A stretch of 28,218 bases of DNA. Origin: a virus. The stretch lies in IMG/VR virus record IMGVR_UViG_3300025108_000288, positions 1-28,218 of that record. One strand, written 5' to 3'. This document shows positions 1,155 to 21,584 of the stretch, piece after piece. The notes under the pieces were generated by a model. It ran no database searches, was not told the origin of the DNA, and was given only the letters and a program-made list of their open reading frames with translations. Each line of letters begins with the position of its first letter. Within the stretch, counting starts at the first letter, position 1. Both the position numbers and the translations under genes were made by a program.

Positions 1155-2702
1155 TTATTCTCCCCATCCAAACCAAGTTGTTTTCTTTTCTTTTAATTCA
1201 CTTTGTAATGATCCCATTGTTGTAAGAGGTGTAGATTCTAATTCACCTGCATTGAATGACATTCGTGATAGTTTATCTAATGCCATTGATAAGGCATCTA
1301 TCTGATCATCATGTGTACCATTAGGAAAGGAGACTGCTTCTTCTATAAAGTCATCAAGCCATACTGCTGCTTTTGGTAAGAAGACTCTACCACCTTCTAT
1401 TAAGTCGGTGATGGCAGAAACACGAGATACTTTGTCAGAAGATACTTTGTATGGAATGATTGCCATCCCTGATTGATTTTTTAACTCTTGTATCAATGAC
1501 ATACCTGATGCTTTATCTTCTATATGTATGCCACGTAAACCTCTGCCACGCCATTTGGTGTTGAGTGTAATTAGCATACGTTTTAATTCAGGGAAGTCAT
1601 AACGTGATCGTTTGATGTCAATGATGTAAATGTCACCTTGACTATCTAAGCCAGCGACAACGGCTACGGAGTAGTCGGCAGTCGATGTTTTTTTAAATGC
1701 TGTATCACATGCAATGATGATGGTAGGAAATTTTTCTAAGTCGATGTCTTCTTTATCATAGTATTTCCACCACTCTGTTTTAATCATGTTACCACCTTTG
1801 ATGTATGGTGATTGTTGATAGAGTGCAGCAAACTCACGAGGATTAAGTTTTTCCATTTTACGTAAATCTGTCATAGGAAATCTTTCTTCCCATAAAGGTA
1901 TTTGTTTTTTTACTTTGATGTAGCGTTTGTATCGAGATACTTTTGCTAAGGGTAAGTGTGCGTATTCTGGATTACGTATTTCATTATCTGATTCTGTATC
2001 AATGATAGCAGGAAAGTTAATGTGATCCCATTCATTCCAATCTTCTTGTGATTGAATACGACCACATAAGTCGTCTGGATGCCAACGAGTAGCAATGCAG
2101 ATGACGGCTGGTGGTTGTGAGTCAAGTGGTTGAAGACGAGTGAGTAGGGATGCTACGTAGTAATTCCAGACTTTGTTACGTTGTGTTGCTGAGTCTGCAT
2201 CTTCACGAGACTTGATAGGATCATCAATGATGAGTAGGTTGGCACGTCTACCTGTAGTTGTACCGCCTAAACCGATAGAGTAGTAGACACCACCTTTTGT
2301 TGTACCCCAGTTATCTACGGCACGAGAGTCAGCAGACAACTCCATGTTTTGAAATGTTTGTAGTGTGTTGGGATCCTTTGCATATTGTCTGACTTGTCTT
2401 CCGAATGTCATGGATAATTCTGAGTTGTAAGTAACACACATCACGGCACGTTCAGGATTACGACCAACATAGTAGACTGGGAATAGACAAGATGCGAGAA
2501 ATGATTTGCCGTGTCTTGGTGGCATGTTAATCATCAGGCGTTTACATTTACCTCTTTCAACATCATCTAGTTTATTTATTAAGTCTCGTTGGAATTTTGC
2601 TAATTCAAATTTAGCATGATGCATTTTAACAAAACCCAAAAATGTTTCTTCTGCATTACGTAATACAAGAAGTCTCTTAGCTGCATCTTTACGAGTCAGC
2701 AT
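1155..2702 (-). CDS. terL: Terminase large subunit (ATPase-nuclease)
   Basis: This is the DNA-packaging motor that pumps phage DNA into the procapsid and cuts it. At 515 residues it has the normal length for the family. Visible motifs are a Walker A-like PPRHGKS at residues 61-67, a Walker B LLIIDD at about 156-161, an ATR motif near 204-206 (CIATRWHPDD), and the RNase H-like nuclease acidic residues in ACDTAFKK (Asp333) and in the C-terminal HDDQIDAL. The start is the ATG at 2702, directly after the stop of the small upstream gene, so the two are probably translationally coupled. The portal follows downstream. This is the most secure assignment in the left arm. Confidence 0.95.
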   Translation of the reverse strand: MLTRKDAAKRLLVLRNAEETFLGFVKMHHAKFELAKFQRDLINKLDDVERGKCKRLMINMPPRHGKSFLASCLFPVYYVGRNPERAVMCVTYNSELSMTFGRQVRQYAKDPNTLQTFQNMELSADSRAVDNWGTTKGGVYYSIGLGGTTTGRRANLLIIDDPIKSREDADSATQRNKVWNYYVASLLTRLQPLDSQPPAVICIATRWHPDDLCGRIQSQEDWNEWDHINFPAIIDTESDNEIRNPEYAHLPLAKVSRYKRYIKVKKQIPLWEERFPMTDLRKMEKLNPREFAALYQQSPYIKGGNMIKTEWWKYYDKEDIDLEKFPTIIIACDTAFKKTSTADYSVAVVAGLDSQGDIYIIDIKRSRYDFPELKRMLITLNTKWRGRGLRGIHIEDKASGMSLIQELKNQSGMAIIPYKVSSDKVSRVSAITDLIEGGRVFLPKAAVWLDDFIEEAVSFPNGTHDDQIDALSMALDKLSRMSFNAGELESTPLTTMGSLQSELKEKKTTWFGWGE

Positions 2703-2942: not shown

Positions 2943-3027
2943 ATAGTGTCTCCTTTTCAATACAGAAGTTGTTAGTTTTGCAGAATTTTATGTAGGTATC
3001 CAACAGCAACGTGGCACATGCCGTCAT

Positions 3028-3049
3028 CGGGTCGCAGGGTACGCCCCCC
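3028..3049. other. G+C-rich patch, candidate packaging (cos/pac) site
   Basis: Eighteen of 22 bases are G or C in an otherwise AT-rich intergenic region, about 90 bases upstream of the start of the small gene preceding terL. Packaging sites often lie next to terminase genes, and cohesive ends are often G+C-rich. That is the only basis for the call, and no cleavage symmetry is obvious. Confidence 0.3.
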
Positions 3050-3225
3050 ATGTCTTGCGTGACACACATGTTGACACAGGAAAAACCTAGGTTTTTTGCA
3101 GGATACGTAGGGTTTCTGGTGCTGTATACAACCTTATTAAGGTTGTTTACATAGGTTTCCAAACGTTTCGGCTTACTCTCTACGAGAGGCAAAAAGATAA
3201 CCTTCACACATGAAAATACTGTCAC

Positions 3226-3250
3226 ATCAAGGGTTATACCCTTGATAGTG
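3226..3250 (+). other. Perfect hairpin with 3' bulged A
   Basis: Arms ATCAAGGGT (3226-3234) and ACCCTTGAT (3238-3246) pair perfectly around the triloop TAT. A single A at 3247 then precedes GTG, which can pair with CAC at 3223-3225. This looks like a weaker member of the two-tier bulged hairpin family at 3299, 3428, 3749 and 4947. Confidence 0.6.
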
Positions 3251-3298
3251 GTTAACTGTCGTCTTTACTGCACAGACACGAATAGCGAATTTTTTATA

Positions 3299-3336
3299 GG
3301 GTTTTACCCCTCTTAGAATAAGAGGGGATAAAACCC
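3299..3336 (+). repeat. Two-tier bulged hairpin, copy 1
   Basis: Outer arm GGGTTTTA is followed by inner arm CCCCTCTTA and loop GAA. The returning inner arm TAAGAGGGG, one unpaired A at 3328 and outer arm TAAAACCC complete the fold. All 17 base pairs are Watson-Crick. No U-tract follows on either strand, so it is not a typical terminator. The same architecture recurs three times with different sequence. Confidence 0.85.
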
Positions 3337-3374
3337 ATAACCTAGCGATTTTGCAAACCAAACTGATGTTATCA

Positions 3375-3398
3375 ATCATGACACACGATCATGACACA
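3375..3398. repeat. Tandem direct repeat, possible operator half-sites
   Basis: ATCATGACACA occurs at 3375-3385 and 3388-3398, a 13-base period, upstream of the first plus-strand small gene. It could be a binding site for a regulator. No other copy was seen. Confidence 0.45.
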
Positions 3399-3427
3399 AA
3401 ACAACAACAAAACGGCAAAGTGGTTAT

Positions 3428-3463
3428 GGTTTTAACCCTCTCAAAGTGAGAGGGTATAAAACC
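3428..3463 (+). repeat. Two-tier bulged hairpin, copy 2
   Basis: Outer arm GGTTTTA, inner arm ACCCTCTCA, loop AAG, inner arm TGAGAGGGT, unpaired A at 3456 and outer arm TAAAACC. All pairs are Watson-Crick. It ends just before the AAAGGA ribosome binding site of the next gene, so it would fold in the 5' leader of that mRNA. Confidence 0.85.
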
Positions 3464-3480
3464 TTCCAGAAAGGAAAATT

Positions 3481-3714
3481 ATGACAAAACATGGTGTGTT
3501 TAGCTTAGCTAAAGATTATCTAGCTACTAATGTAGCTAGAAACTACAAGGAATCCAAGTCCTTTGGACTTGGACAAGATTGGAGATCAACGTACTTTTGG
3601 TGCAAAAGTTTTCAACTTCGCAAAGGATCTGATGAGTTGCTAGCAACTCATATAGCTTCAAATTATGCAACTTCAAAATGCGTAAGCATTTTAGAATACA
3701 AAGCTACTCATTGA
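3481..3714 (+). CDS. Small protein with internal duplication, hairpin-rich gene
   Basis: This encodes a 77-residue protein of unknown function. AGAAAGGA lies about eight bases before the ATG. The protein contains a clear internal repeat: LATNVARNYKESKS at residues 19-32 matches LATHIASNYATSKC near residues 54-67. The gene is packed with perfect inverted repeats, at 3499-3513, 3519-3540, 3553-3573, 3593-3609, 3632-3651, 3675-3692 and 3700-3722. The last one encloses the TGA stop. Selection on nucleic-acid structure may therefore compete with selection on the protein. It is first in a run of five small genes. The coding call is likely but not certain, because structure could create an open frame by chance. 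Confidence 0.6.
   Translation: MTKHGVFSLAKDYLATNVARNYKESKSFGLGQDWRSTYFWCKSFQLRKGSDELLATHIASNYATSKCVSILEYKATH
3499..3692 (+). repeat. Array of six perfect hairpins inside the 77-residue gene
   Basis: Perfect arms and loops, in order: TTTAGCT with loop T (3499-3513); TCTAGCTAC with loop TAAT (3519-3540); TCCAAGTCC with loop TTT (3553-3573); ACTTTTG with loop GTG (3593-3609); ATGAGTTGCT with no loop (3632-3651); AAAATGC with loop GTAA (3675-3692). The sequences are unrelated to each other, so they did not arise by duplication. Centres lie 24-42 bases apart. Confidence 0.85.
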
Positions 3715-3722
3715 GTAGCTTT
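3700..3722 (+). other. 11-bp hairpin enclosing a stop codon
   Basis: AAAGCTACTCA pairs perfectly with TGAGTAGCTTT around a single T. The TGA stop of the upstream gene is the first codon of the 3' arm. A comparable 11-bp hairpin encloses the next gene's stop at 4330-4354. No U-tract follows, so it is not a standard terminator. Confidence 0.8.
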
Positions 3723-3748
3723 CACACACGAGATTTTGGAAGTGGTTT

Positions 3749-3786
3749 AGCTTTAAACCCTTTCAAAGTGAAAGGGTATTAAAGCT
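3749..3786 (+). repeat. Two-tier bulged hairpin, copy 3
   Basis: Outer arm AGCTTTAA, inner arm ACCCTTTCA, loop AAG, inner arm TGAAAGGGT, unpaired A at 3778 and outer arm TTAAAGCT. Relative to copy 2, several positions have changed on both sides of the stem with pairing kept, as expected for a conserved fold. It lies between two small genes. Confidence 0.85.
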
Positions 3787-3811
3787 TACCCTCTCAACTC
3801 TGACGGAAAAC

Positions 3812-3857
3812 TGAATCTTCGATTCATTCACATGGTGTGTTTTGAATCTTCGATTCA
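3812..3857 (+). repeat. Duplicated 15-base hairpin TGAATC-TTC-GATTCA
   Basis: The same 15 bases, a 6-bp perfect stem with loop TTC, occur at 3812-3826 and 3843-3857. Both lie in the leader of the next gene. The core AATCTTCGATT recurs in a branched structure at 17401. Confidence 0.8.
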
Positions 3858-3876
3858 CTGACGAAAAGGAGCTTTT

Positions 3877-4344
3877 ATGCTTACATCTACAAACGTTACT
3901 GTTAACTTCGTTAACAACTCTGGCAACACAGTTGCTACTGCATCACGACCACTACGTCTTTTGCCTGACGGCAAAGGCTTCGGTGTTGTTCGTAAAGGCA
4001 AGGTATTGCCTTTCATCGCTACATCTCCAACTGAAGGTACTTCAGTTGTTGGTACGTCTGACAGCTTTGCTGTTGATCAGTGTCGTGCTGTGAAGATGAC
4101 CGATCTTGGTCTTAAGACCAAGGTTGAGGTTAAGGCTGAAACGCCATCTGCACCACGTACTGTTGCACAGCAACAGGCTACTGTTGCGATGCTTACGGCT
4201 CGTGTTGCTAAGTCACCTACACCAAAGCTTAAGAAAGCTTTGGCGACTGCTACTCACAACCTTGCTAAGAAGCAAGCTACACCAGTGGGTACGAATTACA
4301 CAAGGCTTACCAAAGCTGAATTAATCAACTTACTTACTGCATAG
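3877..4344 (+). CDS. Unknown 155-residue basic protein, hairpin-rich gene
   Basis: The first 75 residues look like a small beta-rich domain. Residues 85-130 are basic and Ala-rich, and the C-terminus (TRLTKAELINLL) resembles the short helical motif of SAP or Rho-N-like domains, which would suit a nucleic-acid-binding role. Function is otherwise unknown. AAGGAG lies six bases before the ATG, inside a 5-bp stem (AAAAG at 3864, CTTTT at 3872), so initiation may be modulated. The coding sequence contains many perfect inverted repeats, and the TAG stop sits at the tip of an 11-bp hairpin. I see no homologue by eye. The protein-like composition makes it a likely real gene. Confidence 0.75.
   Translation: MLTSTNVTVNFVNNSGNTVATASRPLRLLPDGKGFGVVRKGKVLPFIATSPTEGTSVVGTSDSFAVDQCRAVKMTDLGLKTKVEVKAETPSAPRTVAQQQATVAMLTARVAKSPTPKLKKALATATHNLAKKQATPVGTNYTRLTKAELINLLTA
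3900..4276 (+). repeat. Array of hairpins inside the 155-residue gene
   Basis: Inverted repeats, in order: TGTTAAC loop TTC (3900-3916); GCAAC loop ACA (3923-3935); CTTTTGCC loop TGAC with one G-T pair (3958-3977); AAAGGCAA loop GGTA (3994-4013); CAACTGAAG loop GTA (4028-4048); ACAGC loop TTT (4061-4073); CTTGGTCTT no loop (4105-4122); CTGTTGC loop ACA (4160-4176); GCAACAG loop GCTA (4170-4187); CCAAAGCTT loop AAGA (4222-4243); CTTGCT loop AAGA (4261-4276). The 4160 and 4170 stems share an arm and exclude each other. Confidence 0.85.
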
Positions 4345-4354
4345 CAGTAAGTAA
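4330..4354 (+). other. 11-bp hairpin with a stop codon at its tip
   Basis: TTACTTACTGC pairs perfectly with GCAGTAAGTAA around the loop ATA. The TAG stop (4342-4344) spans the loop and the first base of the 3' arm. The next ribosome binding site (GGGAGG) starts six bases after the stem. Confidence 0.8.
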
Positions 4355-4370
4355 TTACTGGGAGGTACTT

Positions 4371-4484
4371 ATGTACATCTGTGTGAGAGCCTATCGCCAT
4401 TGGCTTAACCAATGGCTAGATACCGATCGATTGTCGGTTGAAGGCTCTCATGCGTTAACTTTCACACACACGAGGTTTTTATGA
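4371..4484 (+). CDS. 37-residue peptide overlapping a branched RNA structure
   Basis: This very small gene starts at ATG 4371 behind a strong GGGAGG. It ends at TGA 4482-4484, which overlaps the next gene's ATG as ATGA, the usual sign of translational coupling. The product is Trp- and Arg-rich in its middle (HWLNQWLDTDR) and has no recognisable domain. Nearly all of its coding sequence also folds as a three-way junction (4381-4453). It may be a true peptide, a leader peptide whose translation opens the structure, or both. Confidence 0.55.
   Translation: MYICVRAYRHWLNQWLDTDRLSVEGSHALTFTHTRFL
4381..4453 (+). ncRNA. Predicted three-way-junction RNA element
   Basis: The closing stem pairs TGAGAGCCT (4384-4392) with AGGCTCTCA (4442-4450) and can extend three more pairs outward with two G-T wobbles. 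Inside are a perfect 8-bp hairpin, GCCATTGG with CCAATGGC around CTTAA (4396-4416), and a 5-bp hairpin, ACCGA with TCGGT around a 7-base loop (4422-4438). It could be a cis-regulatory element controlling the downstream ribosome binding site. It matches no RNA family I recognise. Confidence 0.6.
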
Positions 4485-4952: not shown

Positions 4953-4986
4953 TTATTATTTTTAGAATAAAAATAATTAATTAACT
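4947..4986 (+). repeat. Two-tier bulged hairpin, copy 4 (A+T-rich)
   Basis: Outer arm AGTTAATT, inner arm ATTATTTTTA, loop GAA, inner arm TAAAAATAAT, unpaired T at 4978 and outer arm AATTAACT. It shares the layout of copies 1-3 (outer stem, inner stem, triloop, single-base 3' bulge) but almost none of their sequence. The stop codon of the zinc-ribbon gene lies in the outer 5' arm. It may also act as a weak transcription end. Confidence 0.8.
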
Positions 4987-5376: not shown

Positions 5377-7047
5377 ATGGATACAGAATCCAGACTAAAA
5401 TCTACTTTAGATTTATCTCTTGAACTGCTCATACAGTTGTATGACAGTTTACGTTCACGTCATGAGTCAAAAAAATATCACATGGGTGAAGATAAAGATG
5501 AAGTAGAAAAATTATACAAGCAATACTTAGACTCAGAACAAGAGACAGACTATGTATTGTTTGCATTGAAGGAAGTACACCACGCAGATACACGTTGGAA
5601 CTCACTCAAAGCTATACTTGCATCTCGTGAAAGTGCAGGCAATGCACCTAGCTACGAACAGATACAACCTCATGACCATGAGATATCTGAACAGCTTGAA
5701 CACATGTGTGATTTGATGAGACTACCAAGACTCTTATCTATGGAGAATGATGAGGTAGAGACAGCAACACCTAATGATGACAACAGCTTACATGTTGAAG
5801 CTAAGACATTGGACGTTGTTAATACTCTCATGTCATCTATGGGTGAATCACTTACATTGGGTGACATACTTGATGCAGCTAACAGAGGTGTCATCAATAC
5901 AATCAATCACAAAGCTGACATGGAGGAGAAAGATAAAACCATACAGGATTTGCAAAAGAAAGTATCGACTCCAAGCTTTCCTGCTGGTGTTGTTGCAAAC
6001 TCCTCACCTTCTGCAAACAAAAATTCCACACCAATCACCGAGGCTGATGCTGAAGTTGTCATGCAAAATGCAATGGACATCTTTGTAAACAATCAAGGTA
6101 AGAAGGTGAAGGCATTGGATTACGAAGTGCCTACATTCAAATGGAAGAAGCCTAATCCTGATGTACCTGAGCTTGATCCACACTATGTGTTTCGACCAGA
6201 GTTAGTATCAGATGTATTGTATTGTCTGTTACATAATCAGAAAGGTTATCTATCTGGTCATACAGGAACAGGTAAGACAACATTGCTTGAACAGATATGT
6301 GCCAAGCTTGGTTATCCATTCAAACGTATCAACTTTGATAGTGAGATTACTCGTCAAGACTTGGTTGGCAGAGAGGTACTCATGTCAGACAGTGGATCAA
6401 CCAAATCTAAATTCATAGATGGCATCATACCACAAGCAGTCAGAACACCTACTGTCTTGTGTCTTGATGAGATAGATTTTGTACGACCAGATGTTGCTTA
6501 TGTATTGCAACGTGCTTTGGAAAACAAAGGCTTCACCATCTTGGAAGACGGAGACAGATTCATTGAGCCACACCCGTTGTTCAGAATCTTTGCTACGGCT
6601 AACACCAAGGGTCAAGGTGATGAGACAGGAAGTTATCAAGGTGCAAGACATCAATCACTTGCATTCCTAGATAGATTCAATGTCTTTACATCAGTACCTT
6701 ATCTACGACCAATAGATGAGAGAGACTTGCTTGTATCATCGGCAACAGGGTTAGATGTAAAGCTTGCTGAACAGATGGTCAAGTTTGCTAACGAGATACG
6801 TGATGCATTCAAGAATGGTACGATCTACATGACAACATCTATCAGAGGTTTGATGACGTGTGCAAAGATGTACACATTCTTTTTACCAATGATGAGTGGC
6901 AATCATAATGCGGCACTCACCTTTGCGATTACCAAATCTATTCTTAACAGATGTGGTCATCAAGACTTTGCAAACATAAGTGAGATTGCTCAACGTGTAT
7001 TCGACACGGGATCTGGCACACCACTTAACTTTAAATACGAGGATTAA
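5377..7047 (+). CDS. MoxR/CobS-like AAA+ ATPase
   Basis: This 556-residue protein has an N-terminal region of about 230 residues with coiled-coil-like segments and a C-terminal AAA+ core. Motifs are Walker A GHTGTGKTT at about 294-302, Walker B VLCLDEIDF around 359-367, and sensor-1 FRIFATANT. The core resembles the MoxR/CobS branch, which usually works with a VWA-domain partner to remodel or load a target protein or metal centre. The partner is encoded next, starting two bases after this stop. CobS-like ATPases are known from many marine phages, but cobalamin synthesis need not be the role here. The ATG follows CGGAGG and a structured leader. Confidence 0.85.
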   Translation: MDTESRLKSTLDLSLELLIQLYDSLRSRHESKKYHMGEDKDEVEKLYKQYLDSEQETDYVLFALKEVHHADTRWNSLKAILASRESAGNAPSYEQIQPHDHEISEQLEHMCDLMRLPRLLSMENDEVETATPNDDNSLHVEAKTLDVVNTLMSSMGESLTLGDILDAANRGVINTINHKADMEEKDKTIQDLQKKVSTPSFPAGVVANSSPSANKNSTPITEADAEVVMQNAMDIFVNNQGKKVKALDYEVPTFKWKKPNPDVPELDPHYVFRPELVSDVLYCLLHNQKGYLSGHTGTGKTTLLEQICAKLGYPFKRINFDSEITRQDLVGREVLMSDSGSTKSKFIDGIIPQAVRTPTVLCLDEIDFVRPDVAYVLQRALENKGFTILEDGDRFIEPHPLFRIFATANTKGQGDETGSYQGARHQSLAFLDRFNVFTSVPYLRPIDERDLLVSSATGLDVKLAEQMVKFANEIRDAFKNGTIYMTTSIRGLMTCAKMYTFFLPMMSGNHNAALTFAITKSILNRCGHQDFANISEIAQRVFDTGSGTPLNFKYED

Positions 7048-7048
7048 T

Positions 7049-9001
7049 ATGGAGAAAGAAAAAGGAATACCTACTCATGTCTTCGAACAATCATGCGATG
7101 CTGCTGCACGTACGTTTGGTAAGAAACATGATATCTCTGTCGTCTTTGCAGGTAATGAGGCAAAGACAGACGGCAGTACAATATGGATGCCTGCGTTGCC
7201 ACAAGGTAAAAACTTAACTGAAGAGCAAGTATCAGTTGGTCGTGGCTACGTTGATCATGAGGCTGGTCATATCAAACACACTGACAATGAGTTGTATGCT
7301 AAGGCTGTGAAAGAAGCCATGATGTGTGATGATAAATACTTACCTGTCTTCATGAATGCATTGGAAGATGTACGTATCGAACGTGTCATCACTGATGAAT
7401 ACTCTGGTAGTAGACGTAACCTTGAGGCAACAGCTAAAGCTGTCAATCGTAGTTACAAGAAAGCATACGATAAAGATGCAAGCATTGCTGATGATGAACG
7501 TAAGGTAGGTGCAGTTGCTATCACATGGGAAGGCAGACGTAGACTTGGATATAATTCAGGCAATGAAGAATGTTTAGATACATTACCTGATGACATTCGT
7601 AAGCAAGTTGAGAACTGGACAGACATGGTTGATGGTATGCGAGATACCAAAGATATGATCACAGCTGCGATCAGTGTTGCTGACATGGTACGTAAAAACA
7701 ATGGCGAGCCAGAGATGGAAGAGGTGTTGACCAATGTTATCTTCGGAGATGGTAGCAAGAGAGGTACTAAAACAGGGAGTAAAGGTAATGCAAAAAACTC
7801 TCAGGGTGACAAATCACAAGGTGACTCTAAGTCTGGTAAGAAAAAAGATTTTGAGCAAGGCGGTCATGAAGCTGGTGATCCTAGTGGAGCAAGCGTTGAT
7901 CCAATCGATCCTAGTCTTGACATTGAAGAGGTACTTGTTGGAGAGAAGATGCCAGACAGGAATGGTAGTAGGAATGTAGAAGGTTTACCCTTTCGTATTC
8001 TTAGTACATCAAGTGACAAGTATCATCATGCTACTGATCAAGACAATAAGTACATGTCTGATTATCATGAAGACTTTACCTTTGGTAAATACATGGCTGA
8101 TGAGAAAGGTAATGCAAAGTATAAGTCTGCAGTATCTAAGATGAGTAGTTCACTTGGTGTCATGAGACGTAAGCTTGAGAGATCATTGATGGCAACTCAA
8201 CTTAGAGGTTGGGATAGTGGTCATGAGGTTGGACGACTTGATACTAAGCGACTTGTGAGTGCATACAATGGCTATCCAAATGTCTTTAAGATTAAGGAAA
8301 GTATCAAGGAGATAGACACAGCAGTTACAATACTTGTTGATCACTCTGGTAGTATGCATGGTGACAAGATGAGACTAGCTATGCAAGCATGTATCGGATT
8401 GACCGAGAGTGTTTACAAAACTGGTTGTGAACTTGAGATACTTGGTTTCTCTACAGGGTCAGACTTTCTTACCAAGGTAGAAAAGCAAATGTATTTTGAT
8501 GACACCACAGCTTACGGAAGACGTGAGCCAACTGACATGTACATTTACAAGTCATTCAAGGATCGTATCCAAGAGGCACGTAAGTCAATAGGTAACATGT
8601 TGAAGGTAGCTTCACGATGTGGTGGTGCAAATGCTGATGGGTGTTCTGTACTACAAGCAACAAGAAGATTACTTAAGCAAAGACAGAAACGTAAAGTGTT
8701 GCTTGTGCTGAGTGACGGATACCCTGCATCAAGATGTGACCTTGGTACTAAAGCTGAGAACAATCATCTACGTAATGCAGTGCAGTATACAGTAGACAGT
8801 GGTGTTGATGTCATAGGTATTGGCATTGCATCAGAGGCAGTCAGACAATTCTATCCAGATTATGCAGTCATACATGACTTCGATGACTTACCTAAAGCAG
8901 TGATGGATAAGATTGCAAAGAGATTACTTGGTCAGAGATTTGTTATCGACAACGCTGATCTAATCAAAGCTGATAAGCAAAAGGTTAGGCAGATGAAATG
9001 A
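7049..9001 (+). CDS. CobT-like VWA protein with HEAGH metalloprotease-like motif
   Basis: This 650-residue protein starts at ATG 7049, with GAGG upstream. The C-terminal third is a von Willebrand A domain with the MIDAS motif DHSGS at residues 431-435, so it should bind a divalent metal and a partner. The N-terminal region has HEAGH at 70-74 followed by NALEDVRIE at 103-111. This matches the layout of zinc metallopeptidases (HExxH plus a downstream acidic ligand) and recalls the metallopeptidase-plus-VWA DUF2201 proteins. A Lys/Gly/Ser-rich linker near 245-285 separates the halves. It pairs with the upstream AAA+ ATPase, and the target is unknown. Peptidase activity is inferred from motif only. 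Confidence 0.82.
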   Translation: MEKEKGIPTHVFEQSCDAAARTFGKKHDISVVFAGNEAKTDGSTIWMPALPQGKNLTEEQVSVGRGYVDHEAGHIKHTDNELYAKAVKEAMMCDDKYLPVFMNALEDVRIERVITDEYSGSRRNLEATAKAVNRSYKKAYDKDASIADDERKVGAVAITWEGRRRLGYNSGNEECLDTLPDDIRKQVENWTDMVDGMRDTKDMITAAISVADMVRKNNGEPEMEEVLTNVIFGDGSKRGTKTGSKGNAKNSQGDKSQGDSKSGKKKDFEQGGHEAGDPSGASVDPIDPSLDIEEVLVGEKMPDRNGSRNVEGLPFRILSTSSDKYHHATDQDNKYMSDYHEDFTFGKYMADEKGNAKYKSAVSKMSSSLGVMRRKLERSLMATQLRGWDSGHEVGRLDTKRLVSAYNGYPNVFKIKESIKEIDTAVTILVDHSGSMHGDKMRLAMQACIGLTESVYKTGCELEILGFSTGSDFLTKVEKQMYFDDTTAYGRREPTDMYIYKSFKDRIQEARKSIGNMLKVASRCGGANADGCSVLQATRRLLKQRQKRKVLLVLSDGYPASRCDLGTKAENNHLRNAVQYTVDSGVDVIGIGIASEAVRQFYPDYAVIHDFDDLPKAVMDKIAKRLLGQRFVIDNADLIKADKQKVRQMK

Positions 9002-15950: not shown

Positions 15951-16171
15951 TCTATAATTACTTCTCCTTCTGTTTCAATCCACACCTTTGCACCACAACT
16001 CAAAGGTTTATCAGGGGAGTAGACGACAGTCGACTCACCTTTAATAGTTACTTTGTTTGCATACGTGTTAGATTTGTATGTCTTAACAGTAATAACTTTT
16101 CCTCTTAATCTCTCTGATCGATGAGTATTTGCACGTATCAAGTGTTGGTTAATATGTATTTTTGTTTTCAT
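15947..16171 (-). CDS. Small beta-rich protein of unknown function
   Basis: The start is placed at ATG 16171, with AAGGAG just upstream and an ATGA overlap with the nuclease gene before it. A longer frame from 16216 lacks such a signal. The 74-residue product alternates polar and hydrophobic residues (VITVKTYKSNTYANKVTIKG), typical of a small beta-barrel such as an OB or SH3-like fold. Nucleic-acid binding is possible. No family is recognised. Confidence 0.6.
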   Translation of the reverse strand: MKTKIHINQHLIRANTHRSERLRGKVITVKTYKSNTYANKVTIKGESTVVYSPDKPLSCGAKVWIETEGEVIIE

Positions 16172-16521
16172 GTAACTCCTTTCTCTTTTAGGTATGCAGC
16201 ATATAATTGAAGCCACTCATCCATACGCATAACCACTAAGGATTCTCCTGTCGTCATTTTGTTACGTCTGTTAATGACAGTCACCAGTGTACCTTTCTCT
16301 CTGGCTTTCTCTGCTTGCTCCAATGCTGCATAGATTTGAAACTTTTCGGTACGTTTACACTCGACATGTAAGTCAGGTGTACCCATCAAGTCGGCACGTA
16401 AGTTTTGTATCGCACCACTCAGGGGTGTACGATACGAGTTGATACCTAGCTTTTCATTGAGATACTTTGCTATCTCTCTCTCGAAGCCACTACCTTTCCT
16501 CTTGGCAGTCTTTCCACTCAT
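16168..16521 (-). CDS. Hjc-like Holliday junction resolvase, PD-(D/E)XK nuclease
   Basis: This 117-residue protein shows the small archaeal-type resolvase pattern: KRKGSGFEREIAKYL with the first Glu, YRTPLSG, DLMGTPDLHVECKR with the catalytic Asp, Glu and Lys, then a helix with Gln (AALEQAEKA). It would cut branched DNA, removing junctions made during recombination or before packaging. It sits in the minus-strand block and would complement the plus-strand Sak4/SSB/exonuclease set. The start overlaps the previous gene by 32 bases and lacks a strong ribosome binding site. Confidence 0.75.
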   Translation of the reverse strand: MSGKTAKRKGSGFEREIAKYLNEKLGINSYRTPLSGAIQNLRADLMGTPDLHVECKRTEKFQIYAALEQAEKAREKGTLVTVINRRNKMTTGESLVVMRMDEWLQLYAAYLKEKGVT

Positions 16522-17465: not shown

Positions 17466-17747
17466 CTTAACTTTATCAACTTTTAAATATTCTACTTTCG
17501 TTACCCAGCTAGTAGGGATAGCCGTATATCTTCCACCTTCTTGTGGATCTTCATCACTTGTGCAGAAGCTACCCATGATCACAATTTTTCTGGCATCCTT
17601 AGAAACCATCCAACCTATATCTACCACAGTAGCTAAATCATAATTAACTATTTCTTCTATTTCTTCCCAACCAGATACCCCATCCTTTGCGTCTACCCAT
17701 GTGACTCTAACCATAGGAAACTTATTGACATCTACTTTATCAATCAT
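17454..17747 (-). CDS. Small phage protein of unknown function
   Basis: This 97-residue, beta-rich protein has a pattern found in many phage hypothetical proteins: MVRVTWVDAKDGVSGWEEIE near the start, then a strand ending VVDIGWMV and a later GSFCTSDEDPQEGG loop. The function of this group is not established. Its ATG overlaps the prim-pol/helicase stop, so it is translated from the same message. The stop codon falls at the edge of the branched structure at 17368-17465. Confidence 0.7.
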   Translation of the reverse strand: MIDKVDVNKFPMVRVTWVDAKDGVSGWEEIEEIVNYDLATVVDIGWMVSKDARKIVIMGSFCTSDEDPQEGGRYTAIPTSWVTKVEYLKVDKVKLIE

Positions 17748-19569
17748 TTAATCCTAACCATCGTTTGATTGTACGAGAAGGTATCATTAAAGCTTTAGCA
17801 ATATCAATGACTGTTGATCCATTGAAACTCATACGTAAAGCTTTCTGTTTAGGTGATGACTCAGATACAATATATTGTTCACCAGTCTTGAGACGTTCAG
17901 CAAAGCCAATAGATACAGTGGCATGGTTATCCGTATGATCCCTAAGCTTTCCATAAGACATCTCTATCGTTAAACCTAGCCTACTGTCTGCCTCAAGTAA
18001 CTTATTTAATCCTACTATCTTAGCTGGATCATGTTTAGATGCTTTAGTCCTAGCTATTTCCTTGTCTTCTACAATAGGAGTAATCCTTATCTGTTGATCA
18101 ACGACAGTTAATTGGTTAGTTGATCCAGCCTCTCTACCTAATCCATCTTGTGTAGGTTTATTAGCATGGTGTAACATGATAACAGATGCACCATTGTTAC
18201 GTATCTTTAAACAGATACTATTTATCCTTGCCCATTGTTCTGCATTGTTTTCCATCAAGCCTGCAAATGCTGTACGAATAGTATCAAAGACAACGACATC
18301 AGGTTTTAATTCATTTAACCAACCCTCTAATATATCAACACCTTCATCTGTCTGTAGATTCATATCACCACCATCCTCTGGTTTGATTAATGCTGATGAC
18401 CAATACATCATGTTAGTATCTGGATCTCCGTATGATCTGTTCATGATATCTAATCTATCTGTAACTGTACTCGCACCATTTTCAAAATCCATATACAAAA
18501 CACGAGAGGGTGCATTGATTTCAAATGCACCAAAGTTTTTACCTAATGCTAGATGCCACATGGTAGTCAATGTTATAAATGATTTACCATGACCAGAGTA
18601 ACCATACACTTGTATGATAGATGCTGGTCGTAAGAATGGATCAACTAAATATTTTTGATTACTTGTTCTTTCTTTTAATGATTCAATATCACTTGCATAG
18701 ATTGGTCTAAACTTTTTATTGATACGACTACCTGCATCATCATACAAGTAAGGATGATCACGTCTATGCATTTCTTCTGCACTAGATATTGTTCTTTCAA
18801 ATTCTTCTTTCTCTAAATCATATTGAAAAAACTCATCAGAAAATTTATGACATAAATCTTTTAACTGTCTTCCTGTTATACCTTTGTTAACTTTCTCTCC
18901 AGCAAAACGAATCAATGCATCGTTGCGTCCATCTCCTTCACCAAGCTTACCATTTTTCTTTGTAAGATTTTCAAATCGTTCCCATGTAGGTAGATAATCT
19001 TCTGGTGATTTGACTTGTACGTTCGATAAATCAAGGTTTTCCCACGAAAAATTGACATCAACTAAGTCACCATCACCACCCCATATAGGCATGTCTTCCC
19101 AATCAATAGTGAATGGCTCCCACTTTTTACCATGACTAGGTGGTGCTAATACGTAACCACCATCACCACGTAAGTCTAAATGTTTTACACCATATAAATT
19201 TGTAGCATTCTTTTTTCTGTATCCATTTTTAGGATGTGCAAAATAATAATGCATACCTCTTGTTGTCTTAACTGCAAAAGGTGAAGATAAATTATTTGCT
19301 TTGCAAAATAATTTTGCATCATCACTATCAGCATCAACAACAATTAAACTTGATATGCTTCCTGTAACAACTGCTATCTGTGCATCAGGAAATTGTGTAA
19401 ACCAATTATTTAATTCATCTTCTGTTGCATGACGTGATTGATATTCTTTCCATTTAATTAAAGGTAATTTTTTAGTAGGGTGTATAGGTATTACTGACCA
19501 ACCTTTATCTAAATATTCAAATGCCTCTAATAGTATTTCATTTTGTTGTGGTAGTTTCAAAGTATCCAT
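17740..19569 (-). CDS. Prim-pol primase fused to RepA-like helicase
   Basis: This 609-residue replication protein has an N-terminal archaeo-eukaryotic-type primase-polymerase domain, with catalytic VVDADS at 77-82, TTRGMHYYF at 102-110, and LRGDGGYVLAPPS at 133-145. A PriCT-like helical segment follows near 210-275. The C-terminal RecA-fold helicase has Walker A GYSGHGKS near 322-329, Walker B VVVFDT and the HHANKP motif. A short HTH-like tail ends the protein. It would prime and unwind the replication fork. No replicative DNA polymerase gene is seen in the window, so it may rely on the host enzyme. The start overlaps the HTH gene by 32 bases. Confidence 0.92.
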   Translation of the reverse strand: MDTLKLPQQNEILLEAFEYLDKGWSVIPIHPTKKLPLIKWKEYQSRHATEDELNNWFTQFPDAQIAVVTGSISSLIVVDADSDDAKLFCKANNLSSPFAVKTTRGMHYYFAHPKNGYRKKNATNLYGVKHLDLRGDGGYVLAPPSHGKKWEPFTIDWEDMPIWGGDGDLVDVNFSWENLDLSNVQVKSPEDYLPTWERFENLTKKNGKLGEGDGRNDALIRFAGEKVNKGITGRQLKDLCHKFSDEFFQYDLEKEEFERTISSAEEMHRRDHPYLYDDAGSRINKKFRPIYASDIESLKERTSNQKYLVDPFLRPASIIQVYGYSGHGKSFITLTTMWHLALGKNFGAFEINAPSRVLYMDFENGASTVTDRLDIMNRSYGDPDTNMMYWSSALIKPEDGGDMNLQTDEGVDILEGWLNELKPDVVVFDTIRTAFAGLMENNAEQWARINSICLKIRNNGASVIMLHHANKPTQDGLGREAGSTNQLTVVDQQIRITPIVEDKEIARTKASKHDPAKIVGLNKLLEADSRLGLTIEMSYGKLRDHTDNHATVSIGFAERLKTGEQYIVSESSPKQKALRMSFNGSTVIDIAKALMIPSRTIKRWLGLND

Positions 19570-20315: not shown

Positions 20316-21069
20316 ACCTATGAGTACATCAGCAGTCGAAAATTCTGGTGTTCAGAAGACTTTGTTATATGGACATCATGGTTGGGGAAAGACTACCCAA
20401 GCAATCAATATGAAAAAACATTATGGTAAAGGTTTTATCATAAGTGGAGAGAGTGGTTTGCGTTCAGTAATGAATGCAGACATTGACTATTTACCATTCA
20501 CATCGTGGGATGGTGAGAATAATCCATCAAAAAATATCTATTCATTCAGAGGTATCTGTAAACTTATGGACACAGAAGACTTTAGGAATGCAGGATACAA
20601 ATGGATTATGTTGGATAGTTTAACAGAATTATCTGACAGACTTATACAACATTTAGAAGTTGAGTACCGAGATAGCAGAAATAAACTTGCTATGTGGGGA
20701 GATAATCAACGTCTGATGTTGGGTAGTGTTAAGTGGATAAGAGACTTACCTTACAATGTTGTTGTTACAGCATTAGCAAAAGAAGAAACAAACGACAATG
20801 GTGAAACAGATTATTGGGCGATGATTAAAGGAGCATCAATACAGAAACAACTACCTGCAATATTTGACAATGTATTGTGTGGTGTGCGTGTAACTGATGG
20901 TGATCGTACAAATCCTCAGATCGAAAGGTTTCTTGTTTGTGATGAAGTAAGAGGATGGAAAGGTAAAGTCCGAGACCCAAACAGGAAGATAGAAGCAGTG
21001 ATGCGTACTGCAGATATCACTGATATTTTTAAACTAATGACAAAACCAAATAAAAAGGAGGCTGCATAA
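20305..21069 (+). CDS. Sak4-like single-strand annealing ATPase
   Basis: This 254-residue RecA-fold protein has Walker A GHHGWGKTT at 23-31 and Walker B WIMLDS near 97-102, with no helicase or protease domain. Size and motifs match the phage Sak4 (AAA_24) group, Rad51-like proteins that promote strand annealing with help from an SSB. The SSB-like gene follows with a one-base overlap, the arrangement expected for this system. AAGGAG precedes the ATG. It would serve recombination-dependent replication or genome circularisation. Another AAA ATP-binding role is a less likely alternative. Confidence 0.85.
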   Translation: MTFKPMSTSAVENSGVQKTLLYGHHGWGKTTQAINMKKHYGKGFIISGESGLRSVMNADIDYLPFTSWDGENNPSKNIYSFRGICKLMDTEDFRNAGYKWIMLDSLTELSDRLIQHLEVEYRDSRNKLAMWGDNQRLMLGSVKWIRDLPYNVVVTALAKEETNDNGETDYWAMIKGASIQKQLPAIFDNVLCGVRVTDGDRTNPQIERFLVCDEVRGWKGKVRDPNRKIEAVMRTADITDIFKLMTKPNKKEAA

Positions 21070-21584
21070 TGTCATTTTCATTTAGAGAACTATCGTTAGA
21101 TGGTGTCGATGCACAGAAGGAATCTTCTGGTGGATCAATTTTAAAAGCTGGAGATTATAATTGTAAAATTAATTCTGCTGAAGTTAAGGATACACGTACA
21201 GGTGGTAAACAAGTTGTTATTGATTTGAAAGACGAAGGTACTGGATCATCAATAAAAGATTTTATCAACGTACATGTACCTGCAGGAGACAATTTGAGTG
21301 TTGAAGAAAAGAATAATAAAACCAATGCTCAGAAGTGGGGTAGAGAAAAACTCAAGGCTCTGTTGACACATGGCGGTCACCCGTCCCCTGATAAGCCAGG
21401 GGATATTTCCTCCTTAGTCGGTCTTAGGGTAGGCGTTCATGTCGAGAAAGATGAGTACACAGACACAACGGGAATGAAAAGGGAGGGTAGCCGAGTCAAA
21501 AGATTTGGTGCTTATTATCCTGTAGTTGCTGGAACTGTTGTTGAAACCTCCTCAACAACATCAACGGATGAGATCCCGTTTTAA
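21069..21584 (+). CDS. Single-stranded DNA-binding protein (DUF669-like)
   Basis: This 171-residue protein has a beta-rich core (residues 20-140, including GDYNCKINSAEVKDTRTGGK) of the phage DUF669/SSB type. Its C-terminus, TDEIPF, closely mimics the acidic DDDIPF tip by which bacterial SSBs recruit partner proteins. This strongly supports a ssDNA-binding role partnered with Sak4. The gene overlaps its neighbours by one base on each side, so the three are translated together. Confidence 0.82.
   Translation: MSFSFRELSLDGVDAQKESSGGSILKAGDYNCKINSAEVKDTRTGGKQVVIDLKDEGTGSSIKDFINVHVPAGDNLSVEEKNNKTNAQKWGREKLKALLTHGGHPSPDKPGDISSLVGLRVGVHVEKDEYTDTTGMKREGSRVKRFGAYYPVVAGTVVETSSTTSTDEIPF

Follow-up and report, generated by a model that had tools for sequence, protein, structure and literature searches.

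The incomplete virus record IMGVR_UViG_3300025108_000288, analysed here over its positions 1 to 28,218 (the window, 28,218 bases), carries an island of short perfect inverted repeats at 3081–4453, in the divergent region that separates the gene for the terminase large subunit (TerL) from a CobS-like gene. Selection in this island acts on the ability to fold and not on particular sequences, a conclusion well supported by compensation and turnover of stems between subclades and by slow substitution within stems, and there is about an even chance that the island is a selected array of DNA hairpins, perhaps serving the start of replication or the entry of DNA. The known cases of selected folding in phages are single elements, such as promoters, operators, terminators and RNase III sites; here, in one lineage, approximately 1 kb of coding and non-coding DNA follows one rule, with about one perfect hairpin per 25–100 bases, a pattern that its close relatives do not share.

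The main scan, which counted non-overlapping perfect stems of at least 7 bp with loops of 0–5 bases, recovered 21 stems in the island, close to the approximately 22 claimed in an earlier sequence-only reading of this DNA; that reading's estimate of fewer than one by chance was correct, since 200 dinucleotide-preserving shuffles of the same stretch averaged 0.52 stems with a maximum of 4. The whole window holds 42 stems, half of them in the island (5% of its length) and the other 21 spread over 27 kb, and among 125 loci, which amount to 1.5 Mb from phages, prophages, T7 and E. coli, the densest 1,373-bp stretch elsewhere contained 11, with 1–5 being usual. Loci L102, L106 and L078, where as many as 11 stems occur in 1.37 kb, were set aside as a different phenomenon, their hairpins being mostly AT-rich or repeated. 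The excess is also evident within codons when protein and codon use are held fixed, in the window and its relatives alike: in codon-preserving shuffle tests of genes (stems of at least 7 bp, loops of up to 8), the 155-amino-acid (155-aa) open reading frame (ORF) has 6 stems against a mean of 0.81 (none of 300 shuffles reaching 6), the 77-aa ORF has 6 against 0.57, and the 155-aa gene of contigs L004 and L014 has 8 against 0.5. Controls of neither kind reach similar counts. TerL and CobT have no such stems and CobS has two, all within codon-shuffle expectation, as had been supposed of the neighbouring large genes by eye, and the 106-aa ORF, PrimPol and integrase likewise lack a hairpin excess. 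The further claim that the stems are unrelated in sequence holds for most of them and fails for three diverged copies of a longer, two-storey element (3299–3336, 3428–3463 and 3749–3786) and for TGAATCttcGATTCA, which is present twice; regarding dispersed palindromic repeats (REP, ERIC, RPE, MITE), shared copy sequence was found only in the two-storey element (3 copies) and in one 15-mer.

Strong selection on secondary structure, as first proposed from the single sequence, is upheld by the codon shuffles together with arm-to-arm compensation, turnover in three subclades and slow stems, with counts from relatives that are not fully independent and, in some comparisons, derive from 9 to 13 sequences in three subclades. 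Homologous hairpins stay paired across subclades despite changes in both arms, as in AACttcGTT to AATtttATT (a Val-to-Ile replacement), ACAGTCC/GGACTGT to ACAATCC/GGATTGT, and stems of the 77-aa ORF, and pairing was not found to be lost without compensation. Eight copies of the two-storey element, with 16 pairs, have 100% standard pairs, seven pairs differing among the copies in both partners and no pair in a single partner, with a covariation score of 0.426 versus 0.128 when shuffled and at most 0.125 for slid structures. A hairpin that is lost is often replaced a few bases away, as in the 155-aa gene, where the three clades have hairpins at alignment columns 301, 305 and 307. In the leader, the window differs from L001 at 0/88 stem sites versus 57/319 other sites, and from L003 at 1/88 versus 50/319; at third codon positions of the 155-aa gene, window and L003 differ at 1/42 in stems versus 20/114 elsewhere (p=0.015). 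As a warning for the interpretation of such genes, it may be the nucleic acid, and not the protein, that drives their synonymous changes and even their amino-acid changes.

The lineage was delimited as contigs with TerL at least 82% identical to that of the window, sister lineages having TerL at 36–57%. The island is present in all 14 lineage contigs whose sequence extends upstream of TerL, with 6–24 stems versus 0.2–1.5 in shuffles; the count is 0–9 at approximately 34 sister-lineage loci, among them that of isolate CRP-810, their adjacent TerL and portal genes being at background, and the homologous region of CRP-810 has 1 and 2 stems in its two halves. The 155-aa protein was found only in the island-bearing lineage. 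A sister-lineage contig from a metagenome-assembled genome (L125:7342-8555) has nine short stems in the corresponding position upstream of TerL, three of them with C-gta-G loops, and a weak form of the island may therefore exist across the whole family. Within the lineage, the 77-aa ORF is a cassette with copies of the two-storey element at its borders. The window, L034 and L005 have the ORF and L001–L003 and L018-L020 do not, the island of L001–L003 being otherwise close to that of the window (L003 86%, L002 94% identical), as if the ORF were exchanged between flanking hairpin elements. An analogous two-storey element of unrelated sequence (TAGCTATTTT-A-GGATTATAC...) is carried by L034, L005, L004 and L014. 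At the 3' end of its 155-aa gene, L003 has a hairpin, CTCTAGGGGAAattaTTCCCCTAGAG, that is characteristic of the L034 subclade, in an island that is otherwise window-like, apparently an exchange between subclades.

Whether the selected fold is one of DNA or RNA bears on the most serious alternative, in which hairpins in early mRNA guard against host ribonucleases or toxins, or set stability or processing between small cistrons. Such protection is plausible because the island comprises a leader and two or three co-directional, early-type small ORFs, with the two-storey element just upstream of ribosome sites and hairpins over stop codons; fold energies of the + strand RNA lie far below those of shuffles (z -11 to -19), and the 12 bp ceiling on stem length would also evade the dsRNA-specific RNase III. 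The - strand, however, folds equally well. Perfect Watson–Crick stems far exceed those with one G·U, the latter being no commoner than an A·C control, unlike E. coli rRNA hairpins, which served as a positive control and, scored identically, mostly contain G·U; pooled one-sided stem changes comprise 20 G·T and 27 A·C, where selection on + strand RNA predicts a G·T excess. Stem GC equals that of the region, an Rfam search of the island found no relevant family (a single sub-threshold hit lay outside it), and the downstream 106-aa ORF and CobS, presumably on the same transcript, are without excess. Paired bases do covary, as RNA-level elements would, but covariation does not distinguish RNA from DNA. 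The RNA stability or processing suggested in the sequence-only reading is thus not favoured, G·U being tolerated no more than A·C and the strands being equivalent, and protection of mRNA is considered rather unlikely. The early-type nature of the gene cluster, named in the same reading, is plausible in view of where the cluster lies.

Folding at the DNA level appears to fit better than folding of one RNA strand, although overall the matter stands close to evenly poised; it is favoured by the scarcity of G·U, the equivalence of the strands, the 12-bp limit and loop features resembling those of phage N4. Stem lengths span 7–12 bp, a secondary peak lying at 9 and no stem exceeding 12; loops are mostly of 3 nt with a purine fraction of 0.51, and the closing pair is 5'C–G3' in 57% versus G–C in 11%. 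Loops of the form C-G(N)NA-G, on either strand, account for 19/67 (28%) versus 35/310 (11%) at other loci (p=0.0008), and most island hairpins are without a C-GNA-G loop. Nearest-neighbour estimates place the isolated DNA hairpins at approximately -2 to -9 kcal/mol at 37 °C. Early promoters of N4 are DNA hairpins that extrude and are recognised by the virion RNA polymerase, where a 3-nt loop, a C–G closing pair and a loop G…A let short promoter hairpins extrude at physiological supercoiling (PMC4496689). Short stems and mostly 3-nt loops link the island hairpins to these, as do the frequent C–G closing pair and, in an enriched minority, the G..A loop, features that favour extrusion; so does a presumed early control region, and the phage family concerned has a podovirus-type internal virion protein. 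In N4, by contrast, the promoters number three and their stem and loop bases are conserved, whereas the island has about 20 unrelated stems, many inside codons, which are replaced between clades and show no conserved bases of the N4 type. No N4-type polymerase was recognised, the virion-region protein gp35 of CRP-810 (2016 aa) matching no PHROG and gp34 only structural families, while the window phage is incomplete.

As a selected DNA array, the island would consist of approximately 20–25 short hairpins maintained for foldability and laid over spacers and two or three small genes, covering the control region from which the packaging operon runs leftward and the CobS/CobT operon rightward. The folding unit would most likely be DNA, in the form of supercoil-extruded cruciforms or of hairpins in transiently single-stranded DNA; if such hairpins form in cellular DNA, the zone would fold wherever it is opened or negatively supercoiled, and could be read by shape and so be marked for a structure-reading step. 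A first guess for this step is that the phage PrimPol/helicase, or factors of the host, would prime or load replication where the DNA bears hairpins, and a second is DNA entry, early transcription or packaging; any specific role is at best of low probability. Genes for a PrimPol/helicase, single-stranded DNA (ssDNA)-binding-like, Sak4-like, Cas4-type and RusA-like proteins make a role in replication start, recombination or packaging possible. A sequence-independent code, in which extrudable hairpins of 7–12 bp are recognised by shape, mark a replication, entry or packaging zone and constrain the encoded proteins, is put forward tentatively.

Several observations weigh against a DNA array. Most stems lie in or beside genes read in one direction, some at stops or just before ribosome sites, and the two-storey element recurs upstream of genes, in the manner of RNA elements. 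Some RNA tetraloops, too, are favoured by closure with C–G, and a cruciform with a stem of only 7–9 bp would need some special advantage. In more diverged pairs the slowing of stems is weaker or not significant; between L004 and L014 and between L034 and L018, third codon positions do not change significantly more slowly inside stems than outside. The loop and G·U statistics are drawn from related, not fully independent sequences, and a G·U control on E. coli intrinsic terminators comprised too few cases to discriminate and went unused; no hairpin-reading protein was identified.

Mutation in place of selection is the second alternative: template switching at quasi-palindromes in a replication-stalling zone would make and re-perfect hairpins of little or no function. 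One such event can create perfect stems, multi-base changes fixing the pairing (PMC8794818), and the compensated pairs without one-sided intermediates, the scarcity of G·U and the appearance and shifting of hairpins by a few bases all agree with it; loop preferences are expected here too, because template switching needs physical folding. Neutral arm conversion, however, should not slow substitution in the way observed for the leader stems, and the island has sharp borders, the adjacent 106-aa ORF being stem-free though between clades it has diverged about as much as the 155-aa ORF. As a sufficient cause, template switching is improbable, but it may be the route by which selected hairpins arise. 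Ordinary terminators and operator palindromes, a few of which are common in intergenic phage regions (0-9 stems at this place in sister lineages), are very unlikely and were ruled out as a full account by the codon shuffles, the lineage survey and a terminator scan, with 4 stem-then-T-run sites in 2.7 kb versus 2.0 expected and with most stems lying within codons and unrelated in sequence. An assembly or amplification artefact, to which the ending of several lineage contigs inside or just before the island might point, has a negligible probability and was ruled out by recurrence of the island, with compensated changes and intact frames, in many independent metagenome contigs across samples.

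Other systems of selected folding offer partial parallels. Single-stranded (Frpo) promoters are known from the leading region of conjugative plasmids (PMC11541004, PMC9849209). Promoters of this kind are fold-back DNA in a zone that enters first and is expressed early. They differ in being few conserved elements on a strand transferred single-stranded, whereas the island phage presumably injects double-stranded DNA. The window shares with CRP-810-type phages the synteny of TerL, CobS/CobT, integrase and PrimPol and differs from CRP-810 in having the island. Hairpins of phage mRNAs that serve as RNase III sites or as 5' stabilisers, for example in T7, lie between small early genes and upstream of ribosome sites; unlike the island, such hairpins tolerate G·U, occur one per gap and do not run through codons. 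RNA viruses have genome-scale ordered RNA structure, in which folding is selected across coding sequence without a fixed sequence, whereas the island is local, belongs to a double-stranded DNA phage, and has perfect Watson–Crick stems of limited length without strand preference. The literature search returned general papers on hairpins, cruciforms and template switching and no published description of the island, and the paper on the CRP-810 family does not mention hairpins or inverted repeats (PMC11288001). The island offers a natural comparison for the role of short DNA hairpins in living genomes, and for selection versus template-switch mutation as the source of stems.

Table 1. Positions of the island, its hairpins and ORFs, and the flanking genes in the window.
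Feature	Position	Strand	Basis or remark
TerL (terminase large subunit)	1155..2702	-	flank; hairpins at background level
Hairpin-saturated island	3081..4453		21 perfect stems of at least 7 bp, loop 0-5
Hairpin AAAAACCTAGGTTTTT	3081..3096		L034 has a different stem, CAGACACTttAGTGTCTG, at the same place
Hairpin ACAACCTTAtTAAGGTTGT	3128..3146		retained in three of three subclades
Hairpin ATCAAGGGTtatACCCTTGAT	3226..3246		scan
Two-storey element, copy 1	3299..3336		two stacked stems, one unpaired A; inner stem 3307-3327
Two-storey element, copy 2	3428..3463		directly upstream of 77-aa ORF
77-aa ORF	3481..3714	+	6 in-frame stems, seventh across stop; present/absent cassette among relatives
Hairpin TTTAGCTtAGCTAAA	3499..3513		scan
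Hairpin TCTAGCTACtaatGTAGCTAGA	3519..3540		scan
Hairpin TCCAAGTCCtttGGACTTGGA	3553..3573		scan
Hairpin ACTTTTGgtgCAAAAGT	3593..3609		L034 counterpart ACGAAAGCAaaaTGCTTTCGT
Hairpin ATGAGTTGCTAGCAACTCAT	3632..3651		scan
Hairpin AAAATGCgtaaGCATTTT	3675..3692		scan
Hairpin spanning 77-aa ORF stop codon	3700..3722		scan
Two-storey element, copy 3	3749..3786		between 77-aa and 155-aa ORFs
155-aa ORF	3877..4344	+	conserved protein, 57-97% identity in relatives; 6-8 in-frame stems
Hairpin TGTTAACttcGTTAACA	3900..3916		ACTGTTAATtttATTAACAGT in L004; Val to Ile, pairing intact
Hairpin AAAGGCAAggtaTTGCCTTT	3994..4013		retained in all subclades
Hairpin CAACTGAAGgtaCTTCAGTTG	4028..4048		other clades: different hairpin, centre shifted 2-4 columns
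Hairpin CTTGGTCTTAAGACCAAG	4105..4122		155-aa gene alignment
Two alternative overlapping hairpins, one common arm (CTGTTGCacaGCAACAG / GCAACAGgctaCTGTTGC)	4160..4187		scan
Hairpin CCAAAGCTTaagaAAGCTTTGG	4222..4243		155-aa gene alignment
Hairpin spanning 155-aa ORF stop codon	4330..4354		scan
Branched fold, GAGAGCC/GGCTCTC around hairpin 4396-4416	4385..4449		read from sequence; hairpin from scan
CobS-like gene	5377..7047	+	flank; hairpins at background level

The genes around the island form a leftward block of portal, TerL and a small gene (2703–2960) and a rightward block that runs from approximately 3.1 kb through small ORFs to CobS, CobT (6980–9001), integrase and further genes; the leftward strand also holds the PrimPol/helicase (17740–19569) and the RusA-like resolvase (16168–16521), and other phage genes encode the ssDNA-binding-like protein (21069–21584), the Sak4-like annealing protein and the Cas4-type exonuclease. 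The order TerL, CobS–CobT, integrase, PrimPol matches that of Roseobacter phage CRP-810, with TerL approximately 54% identical; CRP-810 founded a family of marine phages that is divided into eight subgroups (PMC11288001). The hosts of the island-bearing lineage are probably marine alphaproteobacteria. The closest relative of the lineage in cellular genomes reaches only 53% in TerL, and the phage collection gave no DNA match and no tblastn match to the 155-aa protein. The small island ORFs belong to no family in Pfam or PHROGs; an AlphaFold model of the 155-aa protein (pLDDT 77, pTM 0.47) had no significant fold match, and its similarity to F1 epsilon was too weak to be trusted. A sigma-70 promoter scan of the island region found matches at chance level only.

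Eight of 18 lineage contigs (L008, L009, L011, L015, L017, L019, L020, L021) end at most 1.1 kb upstream of TerL, some of them inside the island, and one of 18 ends within the same distance past the other end of TerL; assembly trouble at hairpins, strain variation and real genome ends are possible causes. The branched fold near the island's right border has two inner hairpins and sits in a 37-aa ORF (4371-4484) that shares an ATGA overlap with the next ORF. Beyond the island, a separate hairpin (ATTATTTTTAgaaTAAAAATAAT, 4955-4977) lies in the gap from the 106-aa ORF to CobS; L002 and L034 conserve it, and L004, L014 and L018 have variants of it. Directly before the island, a non-coding stretch at 2980-3060 (ACAGCAACGTGGCAC ... 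CCCCCC) is strongly conserved in all subclades and is possibly a packaging or promoter site.

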